Source: Acinetobacter venetianus RAG-1 = CIP 110063 (lineage in GTDB: Bacteria; Pseudomonadota; Gammaproteobacteria; Pseudomonadales; Moraxellaceae). Taken from it: a stretch of 64,000 nucleotides of DNA. The stretch covers positions 442,625 through 506,624 of the forward strand of contig NZ_KB849558.1 of NCBI RefSeq assembly GCF_000368585.1. The letters run 5' to 3'. Numbering within the stretch: position 1 is the stretch's first letter; the number at the start of each line of letters is the position of its first letter. Positions 58,101 to 63,722 of this stretch are shown piece after piece. A program made the translations under genes and the position numbers. Under the pieces are notes generated by a model. It was not told the DNA's origin. It saw nothing but the letters and a program-made list of their open reading frames with translations, and did not search any database.

Positions 58101-58234
58101 AACATTTTATTGGGGGGTAACGGTATTTCTACCGATTATTGGAGAGGCATTGTTGATGAGGTAAGAGTGACTATCGGTGTTGCAAGATATACAACCAACT
58201 TCACATCACAAACGAAAGAATATCATGACTTCTA
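58016..58234 (+). pseudogene. C-terminal remnant of a phage LamG-like tail protein
   Basis: Two frames read together give the end of a concanavalin-type (LamG) domain. One frame gives ITLYVNGVAVGNV and SAVSAKTFY. After a one-base shift at the T/G run near 58115, the other gives GGNGISTDYWRGIVDEVRVT and a closing YTTNFTSQTKEYHDF before TAA at 58232-58234. WRGIVDEVRVT followed by GVARYT is a hallmark of the LamG end in phage tail and tip proteins. The gap to the terminase fragment is only a few bases, so the whole head and tail gene block is missing. Confidence 0.72.
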
Positions 58235-58330
58235 ATCCTCCTTTCCTGAGATAAAAGCACTTTAATCTTCAATTTAGTGATAGATCCGTTATAAACTACT
58301 AACATATTGAAAATATTAAGTTTGAATTTT

Positions 58331-59773
58331 ATGAAAAATAAAATAGTAATTCCAATGGTGCTTGGGGGAATTATTTGTATTTATGTACTTTATCTTATGG
58401 GATGGACACCCGTTTACACCCTAGATGATGCATACATAGTACAACATTCGGTTAATAATTTTGTTAACTTTAAAAGCGAGTCAGTGTTTTTAGATTCTGC
58501 AAAAAACTCAGGGCTGACAAGCATTGTGCATGTAGGATTAATTACACTCATTGCTTTTGTTTTTGATACAAATTGGAGTCAATTTTTAATAGCTTCTCTA
58601 AGCTACATATTATTTCTTGTAGCAATCTTTTTATATTCATTTAAGTCGACTAAAAATATAGTCACAAGTTTCTGTCTAACCTTATTAGCAGCTGTTTCTG
58701 GATACGTAATTGAGCAGTTTTTTAATGGGCTTGAAACAGGCTTACTCATCTTTTTAGTCACTATAAGTTTAATTTTGTTTAGAAATGGAGTACCACAGCA
58801 AAAGTTAGCATTTGCATTGTTACCAGTATTGCCATTTGTACGACCTGAATTGTCATTTCTAAGCGCGATAATATGTGTTAGAGCTGCTTTTTTTTATTTT
58901 AAAAACAATCAAAAAAGCGAGTTTTCAAGAGCATTTTTTATCTTAGTGATAGCTTCAGCAATGGTCGCAATTTACGCAATCATTTTGACTGGAAATATAT
59001 TACCTAATACAGCAGGAGCTAAATCATACTTTTTTGCTGAGTCGTGTAAGCAACTAGATGAAAAAATTAGAGTGTTAAATTCTGGTATTGGCAGGTTCTT
59101 GTCAAGCCTGGGAGTTCTTTCACTAGGTTTTATAGCAATTTTGTTTACTCGGTTAAGATTCGTTTTTCTTACATTTATTTCTATTTTTTACATATTGTAT
59201 TTGTTAGAGTTTTCAGGTGGTATTCATCACAATAATTACAGATATCAATACGTTTTTTATGCGTTCGCGATTATAGGGTTAATTGATTTTTTATCATTAA
59301 ATTTAGTTGCTAAATATAGTAAATATCTAAGTTTACTTATGCTAGTTCTAGGTTTGTATAGTGTCCCTAAAAACATTCACAATTTAAATACTTCTATTCA
59401 ATTTACTCAAAATGAAAATTTTACAGTTGGGGAGTGGGTAAAGGAGAATATCAGTAAGAATGATGTAATTTTGATTCATGATGCGGGTTATATCTCGACT
59501 GTAACTAATAGTAAGCTTGTAGATATAGTTGGACTCAAAACATCATATTCAGCCCAAGTAAACAAAGTTACTCGATTAGTAAATTGCGGAAATGATCCAA
59601 GAGCAATCGATGCTATAGCTACCAAATTTAATGCGAAATACTTTGTTGTTTTCGGTATGTGGGACGACATCTTTCAGTTAACAAACTCATTAAAAGTAAT
59701 GGGTTGGAAAGTTGAAGTAGCAGATAAATCTAGAGATGGAGCAGCTTATCGAGTATACAAGATTTCAAAATAA
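58331..59773 (+). CDS. GT-C type membrane glycosyltransferase
   Basis: A 480-residue membrane protein with about ten to eleven hydrophobic segments and a soluble C-terminal domain of about 110 residues. The Asp pair in LDDAYIV at about residues 32-33, after the first membrane segment, plus FFNGLETGLL and FVRPELSFLSAI, match GT-C enzymes that use lipid-linked sugars (DDAYI group). The start is ATG 58331; a TTG at 58307 is possible. Phage-borne transferases of this type often modify host surface glycans. The sugar and acceptor are unknown, and the gene appears intact. Confidence 0.72.
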   Translation: MKNKIVIPMVLGGIICIYVLYLMGWTPVYTLDDAYIVQHSVNNFVNFKSESVFLDSAKNSGLTSIVHVGLITLIAFVFDTNWSQFLIASLSYILFLVAIFLYSFKSTKNIVTSFCLTLLAAVSGYVIEQFFNGLETGLLIFLVTISLILFRNGVPQQKLAFALLPVLPFVRPELSFLSAIICVRAAFFYFKNNQKSEFSRAFFILVIASAMVAIYAIILTGNILPNTAGAKSYFFAESCKQLDEKIRVLNSGIGRFLSSLGVLSLGFIAILFTRLRFVFLTFISIFYILYLLEFSGGIHHNNYRYQYVFYAFAIIGLIDFLSLNLVAKYSKYLSLLMLVLGLYSVPKNIHNLNTSIQFTQNENFTVGEWVKENISKNDVILIHDAGYISTVTNSKLVDIVGLKTSYSAQVNKVTRLVNCGNDPRAIDAIATKFNAKYFVVFGMWDDIFQLTNSLKVMGWKVEVADKSRDGAAYRVYKISK

Positions 59774-59826: not shown

Positions 59827-59919
59827 ATGAAAATGGCAGAGCGAGTAAGTAGCGGTGTCGGGGTCGCAACTGTAATTCAAGTTTATGGTATGTGGTTCTT
59901 GATAGCTATAGTAGTTTAA
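59827..59919 (+). pseudogene. Short frame resembling the start of a phage holin
   Basis: A 30-codon frame from ATG 59827 gives MKMAERVSSGVGVATVIQ and then a hydrophobic stretch before TAA. The AERVSSGVG opening recalls the start of small phage holins, but the rest of such a protein is missing. It is probably a gene remnant. Confidence 0.35.
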
Positions 59920-59998: not shown

Positions 59999-60193
59999 AT
60001 GGCTGAGTTACCCAAAAAAACTAAGGTGAATAAAAAAGATGGCCAACTCTTAATTCGTATTAATACGGCTGAGCGTGACGAGTTTATTCACCTATGTGAT
60101 AGCTTAGACACAAGTGCAGCTAGAGAATTAAGAAAATACATCCGTAGTTTTATAAAAAAACATCAGTCAACGGATAAACTAACCAAGGAGTAA
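59999..60193 (+). CDS. Ribbon-helix-helix type small regulator (putative)
   Basis: A 64-residue basic protein. The segment GQLLIRINTAERDEFIHLCDSLDTSAARELRKYIRSFIKK fits the ribbon-helix-helix pattern: a short strand (LLIRIN), a first helix (AERDEFIHLCDSL) and a second helix after TSAA. Proteins of this type bind operators as dimers, often in plasmids and phages. It is transcribed from a promoter with a palindromic operator and is followed by a 37-codon lysine-rich gene. Confidence 0.65.
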   Translation: MAELPKKTKVNKKDGQLLIRINTAERDEFIHLCDSLDTSAARELRKYIRSFIKKHQSTDKLTKE

Positions 60194-60311: not shown

Positions 60312-60340
60312 TCATTTTGATTAAACTCTGATTATAAGAA

Positions 60341-60372
60341 AACCCCTCAAGTTAATTTTTGAGGGGTTTTTA
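60341..60372 (+). terminator. Terminator of the regulator/peptide operon
   Basis: AACCCCTCAA (60341-60350) pairs with TTGAGGGGTT (60359-60368), followed by T's. Confidence 0.9.
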
Positions 60373-60455
60373 GTTTTTACAATAAGCGGTGAATATTTAA
60401 AAAATTGATTTATTTTCGTACTACTGAAAGCGTATTTCCATTCATCTTAATTTTT

Positions 60456-60483
60456 TTACAACTGTACTACTTTTAGTATACTG
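60456..60483 (+). promoter_or_regulatory. Promoter of the first secreted-paralogue gene
   Basis: TTTACA at 60456-60461 and TATACT at 60478-60483 lie 16 nt apart. The -10 box sits in the 8-bp palindrome AGTATACT (60476-60483), which recurs before the second paralogue. Confidence 0.55.
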
Positions 60484-60512: not shown

Positions 60513-61326
60513 GTGAAAAAATTAGTTCTAGGATCTTTGATAACAATTGCTGCTACAAGTAATGTATTTGCTGAGTGCAGCTATATTTTAGATGCATCTA
60601 ACAACCAAATTGAGCAAATGCAACCAAATATTTCTCAAAAATTCTTGGAAGTAAATACTCTTAGCCAACAGGTTAACCAACCAATTGGGGTTTTTTGGGA
60701 ATAAATATATTTTTCTTGCAGGCTCTTCACTAGGAACACAAAATTTACTTAATTTTACTCAAAACCCCCAGACAACAGCTTTTGGCGATGTTGCTGTACA
60801 ACAAAATGGTATTTCAGTTTTTGAATATAAATTTAATAATTATCCTGCTCAACTAACAGGAGTTAATAGGCAAGTAATTAAGAGTGGTCTTATTATTTAT
60901 GCTGGTACACAAGATACTGATATTCAAAATATAGTTGTTAATGCCACCTTAGATAATGTAAATGAACCTTCTTATTTGCAAAGCACAAATCTTAATGTGA
61001 GTTTCTATAATTTTAAAACAAATCAAAATGCTAATTATACTTACCCTATATCAATACCATTGCAGAGTAATTTTAAGCTTGGCTTTTATATAAACCAAGA
61101 ATCCAAACAGATTGGATTAAATGTGAATGGTGTAAACAAAGGCTATATATTTGGATTGGAAAAGAAGATTGGTAAAATTTCATTTTTCCCAAGAGCAGAT
61201 ATAGAGGTTCCTCAAAATTCATCAATTATAGGGCAAAATTTAAAAGGAACATTGCTAACAAACAGTGCGGATATTTCTCTGTCGTATCCAGTTGGGGCGA
61301 CAGATATCTGTGGAAATGTAATCTAA
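60513..61326 (+). pseudogene. Secreted-protein paralogue 1, frameshifted
   Basis: Starting at GTG 60513, a signal peptide (LVLGSLITIAATSNVFA) leads to ECSYILDAS. The frame breaks at the six-T run 60691-60696: as written it ends at 60704, but with one T fewer it continues without a break to TAA at 61324-61326, giving about 270 residues. The restored C-terminal half has LGFYINQESKQIGLNVNGVNKGY and ends with DICGNVI, as in the other two copies. It is either a decayed gene or a sequencing error in the homopolymer. The function is unknown. Confidence 0.72.
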
Positions 61327-61364
61327 ATAAGATTTCCCTCTGGAAGTTCTTATATAACGAATTG

Positions 61365-61388
61365 ACCGCCTTTACAGGCGGTTTTTTA
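61365..61388 (+). terminator. Terminator after paralogue 1
   Basis: ACCGCC (61365-61370) pairs with GGCGGT (61377-61382), then a T run. Confidence 0.85.
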
Positions 61389-61400
61389 TTATCTGGAGAA

Positions 61401-61793
61401 ATGAAAATGCATGAGCATTTATCGATCAAAGCACTACCGTGAGTTTTAAAAATCTTTGCTGCAATTGTAGGCGCGATTTTCGCACTTATTTTAAGTGGAG
61501 ATATTGATAAGGAAGGGCGGATCAAGATCAATATTGGTGTTGTGATGAAGTTTGTTTTCAGTGTGGCTATTAGCTTATTTGGAGGGGCTGCATTCATTGA
61601 GTATTTTAACTTAGGTCATTATTCACACATGGCTCAAGGCTTTGTGATGCTTATGTTTGCTGTGTTTGGGATGTTGTGCATTGGTATCTTGTGCATTGGT
61701 ATCTTGTACCAAGCCGTACAATTAATGAAAGGCAAGTCACTTGCAGAAATTATTGTCGAAGTGAAAGAAACGTTTAGCTCAATTTTTAAATAA
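61401..61793 (+). pseudogene. Putative phage holin gene with an in-frame TGA
   Basis: CTGGAG lies 2 nt before ATG 61401. The frame is open for 13 codons, meets TGA at 61440-61442 (after SIKALP) and continues in the same frame to TAA at 61791-61793, about 130 codons in all. It has three hydrophobic segments in the order of a holin-type protein (LKIFAAIVGAIFALIL, KFVFSVAISLFGGAAFI, then a long third). A TGG codon changed to TGA is the simple explanation. A 15-bp tandem duplication lies in the third segment. A shorter product from 61545 (ATG) could exist. Confidence 0.65.
61674..61703 (+). repeat. 15-bp tandem duplication
   Basis: TTGTGCATTGGTATC occurs twice in a row (61674-61688 and 61689-61703), adding five residues (LCIGI) in frame within the third hydrophobic segment of the holin-like gene. 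Confidence 0.9.
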
Positions 61794-61867
61794 ATCAAAG
61801 CTAAGGCGATGTATCATTTCAGAGTATTTTCCTTTTATCCAAATTTTTAAATTACCGTACCGATTTA

Positions 61868-61875
61868 AGTATACT
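61868..61875 (+). promoter_or_regulatory. Promoter element before paralogue 2
   Basis: The palindrome AGTATACT recurs here within TTTAAGTATACTG, followed at a similar distance by TTCTATTA as upstream of paralogue 1. It holds the likely -10 box TATACT at 61870-61875. Confidence 0.5.
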
Positions 61876-61904
61876 GGGTGTTCTATTATAAAAAGGACAT
61901 ATTT

Positions 61905-62738
61905 GTGAAAGAGATTCTTCTAGGAACGATGATTAGTCTGGTAACTATGGGAAGTTCGTATGCAGCTTGTACTTATAATTTAAATGCAACGCAGGCCCAA
62001 GTTGATGCTGCGAATGCTTTAGGAGGTCGTCAGGCTTCTTTAATGCCAACAATTAATGTTACAGAACAAAAAGGTACAGCAGTAATTGGTCACTCTGGTA
62101 ATTCAGTTGATTAAATAGCGACATCTAGTAATTTTATAAGTAATGGTTCGATTAGTTCAACATTAACGGATAAAGCTGTTTTAGGCTCAAATATTGTTGC
62201 AACGGAGTTTGTTTTTGATATTTCTAATATCAAAGATATACCTCTAGGGACAAGTCATGAAATTCAACAACTAGCTGTACAGATATTAGGGGCTTCCAAC
62301 TCAAAAAATGAGTTAAGTTTGGATCTGGCTTATAGCGTGGTAAACAATGATCCAAACTATACAAATGGAGGTTATGTCACTTTAACAGGCGTAACTACCA
62401 AATTAGACTCCACTGGACAGCTAGAAGCTAAAGATTTTGATCGTAAATTAATATCTGTGGCAACACCTAGTGATGGTAAGGTTCGAATAGGTATTTATTT
62501 TAACCAAGTGGCGAAGCAATTAGGCTACATCATTAATGGTACTAATTATGGATATCTGAACATCAATGCTGAAAATGCTTTGAGCAATATCGGTTTCCAA
62601 GCAGTTTCTCAGCCATCTCCAAACACAGCTTCTAAGTTTCTCGGTAAACAGGTTTCAATCCAGATGATCACAGATGCACCAAACATCCAATTTACCTATC
62701 CAACTGGATCAAGTGATATTTGTGGAGTTGGTCTTTAA
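61905..62738 (+). pseudogene. Secreted-protein paralogue 2, in-frame TAA
   Basis: GTG 61905 has AAGGA about 8 nt upstream, as in the other copies. The signal peptide (ILLGTMISLVTMGSSYA) is followed by ACTYNLNAT. TAA at 62112-62114 is codon 70, yet the same frame runs on to TAA at 62736-62738, giving 277 codons in all. The later part keeps RIGIYFNQVAKQLGYIINGTNYGY and the end DICGVGL. A single nonsense change is the best explanation, since the frame after it is fully open. Confidence 0.74.
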
Positions 62739-62760
62739 TCATCAAAGAAGTTTTAAAAAA

Positions 62761-62786
62761 AATACCGCCGAAAGGCGGTATTTATC
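62761..62786 (+). terminator. Terminator with GAAA tetraloop after paralogue 2
   Basis: AATACCGCC (62761-62769) and GGCGGTATT (62774-62782) form a perfect stem around GAAA. The T tract after it is short. Confidence 0.8.
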
Positions 62787-62861
62787 TCCATCTATTTGAT
62801 ATTATAAATATTTTTATAATTTATTTATAGTAAACGTTGAATTATAAGAAAGGATTTAACT

Positions 62862-63653
62862 GTGAAAAATATAATCTTGGGTACAATTATTATCGCATCA
62901 ACAATAGGAAATAGCTTTGCAGCATGTACTTATAATTTGGATGCTAGTACTGCGGAAATTGAGGCATTACCTAGCAACATTCCAACTACAAAGTTTCCAA
63001 CTATTACAAATCAGAAAAGCTCATTTCTGATACCTAGTTTCCCATCCAACTCAAACACATTTCAAATGTATATGGGCACGAGTTCAGATATAGCACAAAA
63101 AATTTTGATCAATAGTGAAAATATTATTGCTGATAAAGGTATTGGTACCACGGGTGAGTATGCTGTTGAATTTTTAATTGATAACTTTATTAAAACTCCT
63201 ATTACAAACGGTAGTTATATTTCAATGGGGTATAGTTTTTTACTTTCAAATACAGATAAAAGTATAAAAGTGGGTACTATAAGTCTGGTCAATGAGCAGG
63301 CAAATGGTATTAATTTAAACGTTTCGCTATCTAAAGAAGATGGAAGTGGTGAAAATTCCTATACATACCCAATTTCTTCAATACCAGCTGCGGGATTAAG
63401 GATAGGGCTTTTTATCAATCAAAATTCTAAACAGATCGGTCTAAATATCAATGGTGTCAATAAAGGCTATATTGACTCTTTTACTACTACGCCAACTAAG
63501 ATAGGTTTTATTGAGTATGGTGTTGCATGGGGCTTTACTGCAGGAGACCCGAATATTGGTAAAACCATTTCAGGTGAACTCATTACAGATAAAAGTAAAA
63601 TTACTCTAAATTATGCAGCCAGTACCAAAGATATTTGTGAAATACCTTTGTAA
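62862..63653 (+). CDS. Secreted-protein paralogue 3, intact
   Basis: The only undamaged copy: 263 residues from GTG 62862, with an AAAGGA site upstream. A signal peptide (NIILGTIIIASTIGNSFA) is followed by ACTYNLDAS. The mature protein has no other membrane segment, few charged clusters and many Asn, Ser and Thr, and looks rich in beta strands. Its Cys are near the mature N-terminus and in the closing DICEIPL, so one disulfide may join the ends. The core LRIGLFINQNSKQIGLNINGVNKGY is shared with the other copies and recalls SPRY/ConA-like strands. The function is unknown. Confidence 0.75.
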   Translation: MKNIILGTIIIASTIGNSFAACTYNLDASTAEIEALPSNIPTTKFPTITNQKSSFLIPSFPSNSNTFQMYMGTSSDIAQKILINSENIIADKGIGTTGEYAVEFLIDNFIKTPITNGSYISMGYSFLLSNTDKSIKVGTISLVNEQANGINLNVSLSKEDGSGENSYTYPISSIPAAGLRIGLFINQNSKQIGLNINGVNKGYIDSFTTTPTKIGFIEYGVAWGFTAGDPNIGKTISGELITDKSKITLNYAASTKDICEIPL

Positions 63654-63695
63654 TTTCGATTAAATTTAAAACAAAACTCTATTTAACAATGATCG

Positions 63696-63722
63696 ACCCA
63701 CTCTTTTGAGTGGGTTTTTTAT
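63696..63722 (+). terminator. Terminator after paralogue 3
   Basis: ACCCACTC (63696-63703) pairs with GAGTGGGT (63708-63715), followed by a T run. Confidence 0.88.

Follow-up and report, generated by a model that had tools for sequence, protein, structure and literature searches.

The last 4 kb of a 64,000-nucleotide (nt) stretch of Acinetobacter venetianus RAG-1 = CIP 110063 (contig NZ_KB849558.1, positions 442,625 to 506,624; hereafter the window) are the lysis block of a prophage in decay and hold three homologous genes, copies 1 to 3. All three belong to PF16223, the domain of unknown function DUF4882. In related phages such a gene is inserted, with a promoter motif and a terminator, between late genes that lie next to each other in sister phages. 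We lean towards the reading that DUF4882 is a lysogenic-conversion moron whose exported lectin-type product would act on the cell envelope and diversify by domain exchange.

Three members of DUF4882 in one prophage

Both PF16223 and phrog_21016 matched all three copies, for which a first-pass annotation of the window had recognised no named family. PF16223 gave 64.1 bits for copy 3 (E 1.6e-17), 62.6 bits for the C-terminal piece of copy 1 (E 4.4e-17) and 59.9 bits for that of copy 2 (E 3.1e-16), with a curated cut-off of 32 bits. The corresponding E-values for phrog_21016 were 5.8e-33, 2.8e-17 and 7e-29. By these sequence scores the homology of the three copies to DUF4882 is far beyond chance. 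The annotation had held that a clear match to a described family would speak against its account of unexplained genes; such a match exists in form, and the family is one without an assigned function. Its description of the genes was borne out. They lie in a row on the same strand, have GTG starts, signal peptides (by eye), an [AE]C-x-Y motif and DIC ends, and all three contain the core G-[FIL]-[YF]-[IF]-NQ..[SA]KQ.G...NG.N.GY. The invariant N- and C-terminal cysteines and the conserved NQ..KQ.G...NG.N.GY hairpin are those of the family. The Pfam model scores the apparently membrane-anchored members of pilus operons highest, whereas the prophage forms look anchorless and mostly have their own promoter motif.

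No DUF4882 copy was found in the own genome outside the window block. A relative of copy 3 at 73% identity is present in Acinetobacter sp. NIPH 2100, and further relatives were found in A. lwoffii and A. baumannii records. PF16223 matched in 29 of 119 Acinetobacter genomes, at 51 places. Among 390 genomes drawn evenly from the order, and thus mostly of other genera, it matched only in the own genome, apart from one weak match. DUF4882 is nearly confined to Acinetobacter in the genomes searched. Three different members had no match in 50,697 records of isolated phages, a set from which records near the own genome were possibly left out, and the best match by sequence to a solved structure had an E-value of 1.1. 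A literature search that covered few subscription papers returned no paper on DUF4882, PF16223 or phrog_21016. The A. baumannii prophage gene A1S_1158, annotated as 'putative signal peptide', is described as a recA-dependent moron (PMC3978071).

The neighbourhoods of DUF4882 genes are of three kinds, namely chaperone-usher pilus operons, prophages and solitary chromosomal genes. The solitary genes at L063 (8713-9489), L079, L083 and L085 lie beside or near exported proteins of cluster c40. The c40 member at L063 had no Pfam match. The cluster may resemble an Acinetobacter surface-filament cluster.

Position in phages and empty sites

Phage morons include lom and bor of lambda and gp15 of HK97. 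DUF4882 shares with them the independent unit of putative promoter, gene and terminator, placed between two late genes that sister phages have side by side. It differs from them in its predicted concanavalin A (ConA)-like fold, in a constant leader with an exchanged mature domain, and in the stacking of several members.

An alignment-based scan of IMG/VR gave 49 DUF4882 loci on 42 contigs. L137 had no DUF4882 open reading frame (ORF), leaving 48 loci, with the window's own prophage (L090) among them. By a fixed rule, an endolysin gene lies within four same-strand genes downstream of DUF4882 at 28 of the 48 loci, own prophage included. Six loci are beside a tape-measure gene, 10 among head/tail-completion genes and 5 elsewhere or unassigned, one locus being counted in two classes. 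With 28 loci in a lysis block, the random sites unlinked to lysis modules that the annotation had named as the contrary outcome were not seen. Two or three different copies occur on 7 of the 42 contigs.

The moron idea was examined at the junction between a phrog_1024 gene (function not named) and the endolysin gene that it precedes. The sample consisted of the best 80 of 521 phrog_1024 loci; as these are the loci closest to the gene of an occupied phage, the proportions are not frequencies. DUF4882 stands between the two genes in 16 of the 80 loci. In 40 the two genes are only 15-47 nt apart (45-47 nt in 37 of them), a further 10 show different gaps or different inserts, and 14, in which another gene follows, were left unscored. 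Thirteen of these 14 were readable, each with a different gene of about 192-212 amino acids (aa) directly after. In a typical empty junction the stop is followed by a terminator hairpin, a ribosome-binding site and then the endolysin. An occupied one reads stop, hairpin, promoter motif, DUF4882 and a second hairpin with a T-run, after which the endolysin follows at once or after a further stretch. A unit of promoter motif, gene and terminator inserted at the empty sites of sister phages is the anatomy of a phage moron, and the annotation's suggestion of phage-carried morons is upheld by the empty sites, the promoter motif and the terminators. Insertion between adjacent genes was thus found for the family at the phrog_1024-endolysin site; the window array allows only an indirect comparison, with L138 and L097. 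By sequence, an own terminator is present as the T-run hairpins of occupied sites and as the hairpins after copies 1 and 3.

The phrog_1024-endolysin junction is a general cargo site. L198, L200, L202, L205 and L207 have a different insert with a 190-aa gene there (gap 924 nt), and L167, L197, L212 and L220 have yet other inserts.

A promoter motif that appears to travel with the gene

Upstream of many DUF4882 genes we found the motif RTCNG(N)WTT, followed 33-35 nt on by a TATA[ACT]T box; the distance from this box to the start codon is mostly 33-37 nt. It is present in 44 of 57 distinct non-pilus upstream regions and in none of 18 pilus-operon ones. The 57 regions are distinct and not independent: the 50 that have a TATA box were reduced to 17 by clustering at 75%, and 13 of these 17 carry the strict motif. 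Window copies 1 and 2 retain a TATACT box and a degenerate upstream motif, and copy 3 is weaker.

A DNA-pattern search of 12 genomes gave 18 matches, 12 of them with exactly 24 nt, the commonest spacing, between both elements. Ten of the 12 precede DUF4882 genes (9 from the defining set and 1 new), and the remaining two are the same sequence, once in each of two genomes. The new match, L154 (G099:C6:796582-799620), is a perfect motif before a DUF4882 gene interrupted by an insertion sequence, directly downstream of a Csu-type pilus operon of which the usher end and the SCPU-domain tip gene are seen. The loose pattern was no commoner than its reversed control (18 versus 22 matches in the 12 genomes; the spacing of the control matches is not shown). 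The motif therefore looks like a promoter travelling with the gene rather than a wide regulon, and a general host regulon is unsupported.

Constant leader and exchanged mature domain

A maximum-likelihood tree of the C-terminal part placed the window copies in three lineages. The tree had 57 rows, with sequences shorter than 135 aa, near-identical sequences and the duplicate loci L005, L006, L040, L078 and L090 left out. Copy 2 groups with L119 and L124 (support 100/97), copy 3 with L039 (100/100), and copy 1 near L071, L080 and L109 (87/92) on a long branch, which makes its place unsure. The three lineages indicate that the array grew by separate acquisitions, and they rule out tandem duplication as the origin of the copies.

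Between units, the promoter and signal peptide are often 84-95% identical in DNA, with the mature region near background (protein identity about 35%). L104 and L117 are 92% identical in the promoter, 88% in the signal peptide, 41% in the body and 92% downstream. Copy 1 and L138 share 92, 92, 44 and 80% in the same order. Copy 1 and L097 are only 55% identical upstream, and then 93% in the signal peptide, 40% in the body and 98% downstream (3' flank 96-98%). The border between leader and body lies at +60 to +90 nt, where the signal peptide gives way to the first residues of the mature protein. This mosaic evidence is windowed DNA identity, and the pairs are non-independent, near-identical phages being included. 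The 48 viral units form 1128 pairs; 237 of these have promoters more than 80% identical, and in 101 of the 237 the mature proteins are less than 45% identical. In the converse control, promoter identity was 50% or less in 803 pairs, and in only 10 of them did the identity of the mature proteins reach 70% or more. A constant leader with an exchanged body is the pattern expected from diversifying selection on an exported binding domain; it reads as an arms-race-like signature and suggests changeable surface binding.

Predicted fold and cysteine pattern

Exactly two cysteines from the CxY motif onward are found in 80 of 82 distinct proteins, and Cys22 and Cys259 (copy 3 numbering) are invariant in the alignments. 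We infer a periplasmic N-to-C disulfide that would join both ends of the chain.

AlphaFold2 models of copy 3 and of a second prophage member, 30% identical to it, are mostly beta, with predicted local distance difference test scores of 87.7 and 88.8. Among the VIA-align matches listed, copy 3 is nearest to a legume-lectin-like domain (Z 11.4, root-mean-square deviation (rmsd) 3.5, 173 aligned residues), with SPRY domains and GH16 enzymes tied with it. The second member is nearest, among the matches listed, to GH16 enzymes (Z 11.2, rmsd 4.0, 204 aligned) and matches the same legume-lectin-like chain with Z 10.3, rmsd 3.7 and 174 aligned residues. As the annotation had guessed, the protein is predicted to form a concanavalin A-like/SPRY jelly roll, which takes up almost all of the mature chain. 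Unlike this likeness in fold, sequence identity to the ConA-like lectins, SPRY domains and GH16 enzymes is only 4-12% among the matches listed. The motif E-[ILV]-D-x-(x)-E, which we take to be the GH16 catalytic motif, was found in none of the 82 distinct proteins, and the looser E.D.{2,3}E in 3 of 82.

Relatives in pilus operons

Of 18 PF16223 matches with E < 1e-80, 17 are in a chaperone-usher pilus operon, after its MrkD-like tip adhesin, and the 18th is at a contig end. The operon order is pilin, PapD chaperone, PapC usher, tip adhesin, DUF4882. By coordinates, 43 genomes have a MrkD-like adhesin, and in 17 of them DUF4882 comes directly after it, with an internal stop in one case. In the other 26, the own genome included, no DUF4882 was found beside the adhesin (one is undecided because of broken contigs). 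A named plasmid annotation and two chromosome-size A. baumannii records show the same pilus order. In Pfam, Fimbrial/FimA domains are matched by the pilin and tip adhesin of the operon and by none of the six DUF4882 sequences scanned.

Judged by gene order and domains, this is probably the Acu/FimA-type operon A1S_1510-1507 of A. baumannii ATCC 17978. That operon and its A. baylyi homologue acuADCG are linked to pellicle, biofilm and adhesion (PMC4216135). DUF4882 follows the tip adhesin in many strains. In contrast to the prophage forms, which have a plain signal peptide and are seemingly anchorless, the pilus-operon forms have an N-terminus that is lipobox-like, as in lipoproteins, or otherwise anchored, followed by a linker (by eye), and have no promoter motif.

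Proposed role and alternatives

We propose that the lysis block contains a stack of three DUF4882 cargo units, one for each gene. Each unit would consist of a promoter region, a gene for an exported protein and a hairpin or terminator, would most likely be transcribed apart from the phage genes, and would be expressed in the lysogen. The product would be exported by the Sec pathway, fold as a ConA-like/SPRY jelly roll with its ends probably stapled by one disulfide, and act outside the cytoplasm as a lectin-type binder. Its target would most probably be a surface glycan or a pilus/adhesin component of the lysogen's own envelope, so that adhesion of the lysogen, or the access of other phages to their receptors, may be altered. 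Specificity would be renewed by recombination, with the promoter-signal peptide leader kept constant and new mature domains placed behind it.

The two leading functions, adhesion or biofilm formation and masking of phage receptors, are inseparable here. An adhesion or biofilm factor, which would bind glycans of the matrix or the host, by itself or together with chaperone-usher pili, and raise lysogen fitness, is possible if tentative. The relatives directly after the tip adhesin (17 of 43 genomes) and the motif-bearing copy downstream of a Csu-type operon would fit it, and such an operon has been implicated in the formation of biofilms and pellicles (PMC4216135). The 26 genomes in which DUF4882 was not found beside the adhesin, and the lack of a Fimbrial domain match in the proteins scanned, speak against it. 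Superinfection exclusion, in which an exported lectin-type protein would mask or occupy a variable receptor (capsule, lipooligosaccharide or pilus) on the lysogen and so keep phages that use it from adsorbing, with domain exchange tracking receptor variety, is rather doubtful. Prophage carriage, the mosaic mature domain and the 7 of 42 viral contigs with two or three different copies agree with it, and a review rates receptor inactivation the most described mechanism of this kind (PMC11436027). However, exclusion is not an obvious role for relatives outside prophages, such as those in pilus operons. An unlikely further step would be a new receptor-masking class that shares ancestry with the pilus-operon component, namely a recombination-diversified repertoire of exported lectin-fold proteins, several kinds per prophage, that matches host glycans or pili and excludes rival phages.

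A periplasmic helper of the lytic cycle, made with the lysis genes and aiding holin, endolysin or envelope disruption, is improbable. DUF4882 genes are on the same strand as holin-position and endolysin genes and are often their direct neighbours, but 40 of the 80 sister junctions (gap 15-47 nt) do without DUF4882, the unit has its own promoter motif and terminator, and other copies lie by head/tail genes, alone in chromosomes or in pilus operons. Least probable of all, and scarcely credible to us, is the bacteriocin-like effector or decoy secreted against other cells that the annotation had also offered. The proteins are apparently exported and diverse, and the C-terminal piece of copy 2 has a sub-threshold match to Pfam Anthrax-tox_M (E 0.081, 12.7 bits, cut-off 25). 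Of five DUF4882 proteins compared with the PADLOC models of known anti-phage defence proteins, four had no match and one had a weak partial match to ShosA (E 0.008, 13.5 bits). However, no toxin family was matched above cut-off, and no conserved neighbour was seen as a possible immunity gene or partner.

Several observations weigh against the moron with an exported lectin-type product. What can be said of the role of DUF4882 comes from sequences and predicted models. In the window array only copy 3 is unbroken, and the strict promoter motif is missing from all three copies. That motif was itself defined after inspecting the same sequences, is absent from pilus-operon copies and in its loose form shows no excess over the reversed control. 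Generic sigma-70-like sites in the window block number 18, compared with a shuffle mean of 18.9. The signal peptides were judged by eye. Enzymes and protein-binding SPRY domains share the ConA-like fold, which therefore does not by itself imply glycan binding. Similarity of the 3' flank is limited to some of the swapped pairs; in L104/L108 and L091/L109 the flank differs despite a constant leader. The own genome's pilus operon is without DUF4882, which is thus optional there and not needed for that pilus.

The family was already named and morons are a known kind; mobile, modular and largely genus-restricted behaviour of a protein with an apparent export signal and a predicted ConA-like fold goes beyond a single window. 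The lysogenic-conversion reading turns an unstudied Acinetobacter domain into a testable system: the gene is mobile and has a promoter motif of its own, the mature domain is interchangeable, the predicted fold is that of a lectin, and a sister gene lies in a pilus operon of a kind linked to biofilm. If the product does bind surface glycans or pili, prophage content would be linked to adhesion, biofilm and phage susceptibility in Acinetobacter.

The window array and its surroundings

The features of the array are listed in Table 1. Copy 3 is the intact 263-residue copy that the annotation had described; the annotation was silent on how copies 1 and 2 are broken. The two holin-type genes it placed beside the copies are present and both damaged, one by an in-frame stop and one by the lack of a standard start codon. 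Compared with its 73% relative, copy 3 has a nonsynonymous divergence (dN) of 0.16 and a synonymous divergence (dS) of 1.15 (dN/dS about 0.14). By this sequence measure purifying selection acts on copy 3, in spite of the damage to the holin-type genes next to it. The block holds 6 terminator-like hairpins, compared with 2.5 in shuffles (standard deviation 1.7).

Table 1 Features of the DUF4882 array and its neighbours (window coordinates)
Feature	Position	Strand	Basis or remark
LamG-like remnant	58101-58235		translated sequence
Truncated remnant of small membrane (holin-position) protein	59833..59910	+	tblastn, 26 aa at 84.6% to 131-aa protein of L080
64-aa ORF, phrog_19878-like	59999..60193	+	relatives in lysis blocks of L080 and L138
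Intrinsic-terminator-like hairpin before cargo unit 1	60338..60371	+	hairpin scan
Copy 1 promoter-like region	60444..60482	+	degenerate upstream motif 60444-60453, TATACT 60477-60482; L138 region nearly identical
DUF4882 copy 1, broken frame	60513..61326	+	pieces 60513-60704 and 60685-61326; GTG start, signal peptide, EC-x-Y
Intrinsic-terminator-like hairpin after copy 1	61364..61383	+	hairpin scan
Small membrane protein, holin position	61401..61793	+	phrog_16485 (function not named); in-frame stop interrupts gene
Copy 2 promoter-like region	61837..61875	+	degenerate motif 61837-61846, TATACT 61870-61875
DUF4882 copy 2, in-frame TAA at 62112-62114	61905..62738	+	ORF pieces 61878-62114 and 62319-62738; signal peptide start 61905
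GC-rich hairpin after copy 2	62760..62783	+	scan scores terminator on - strand only
Copy 3 weak promoter-like sequence	62790..62831	+	degenerate motif 62790-62799, TATAGT 62826-62831
DUF4882 copy 3, intact, 263 aa	62862..63653	+	signal peptide, Cys22, Cys259
Intrinsic-terminator-like hairpin after copy 3	63695..63716	+	hairpin scan
Holin gene without standard start codon	63740..64000, past window end	+	98% identical relative is PF05106 Phage_holin_3_1; phage lysozyme next

A 488-aa polytopic membrane protein is encoded at 58307-59773, between tail-gene remnants and the prophage lysis block. It matched nothing in Pfam, NCBIfam or the PDB sequences at E up to 1, and is possibly, as a guess from sequence, a membrane glycosyltransferase-type conversion gene. 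On a larger scale, about 90 kb of largely phage-like DNA appears to extend over G000:C3 about 499000-593000 (in the window from about 56 kb), flanked by the yebC/lrp side and a chaperone-usher pilus operon. These flanks are close neighbours in the relatives L043, L050 and L057, and the interval between them is an apparent prophage hot spot. L076 and L081 have DUF4882 genes near the same place.

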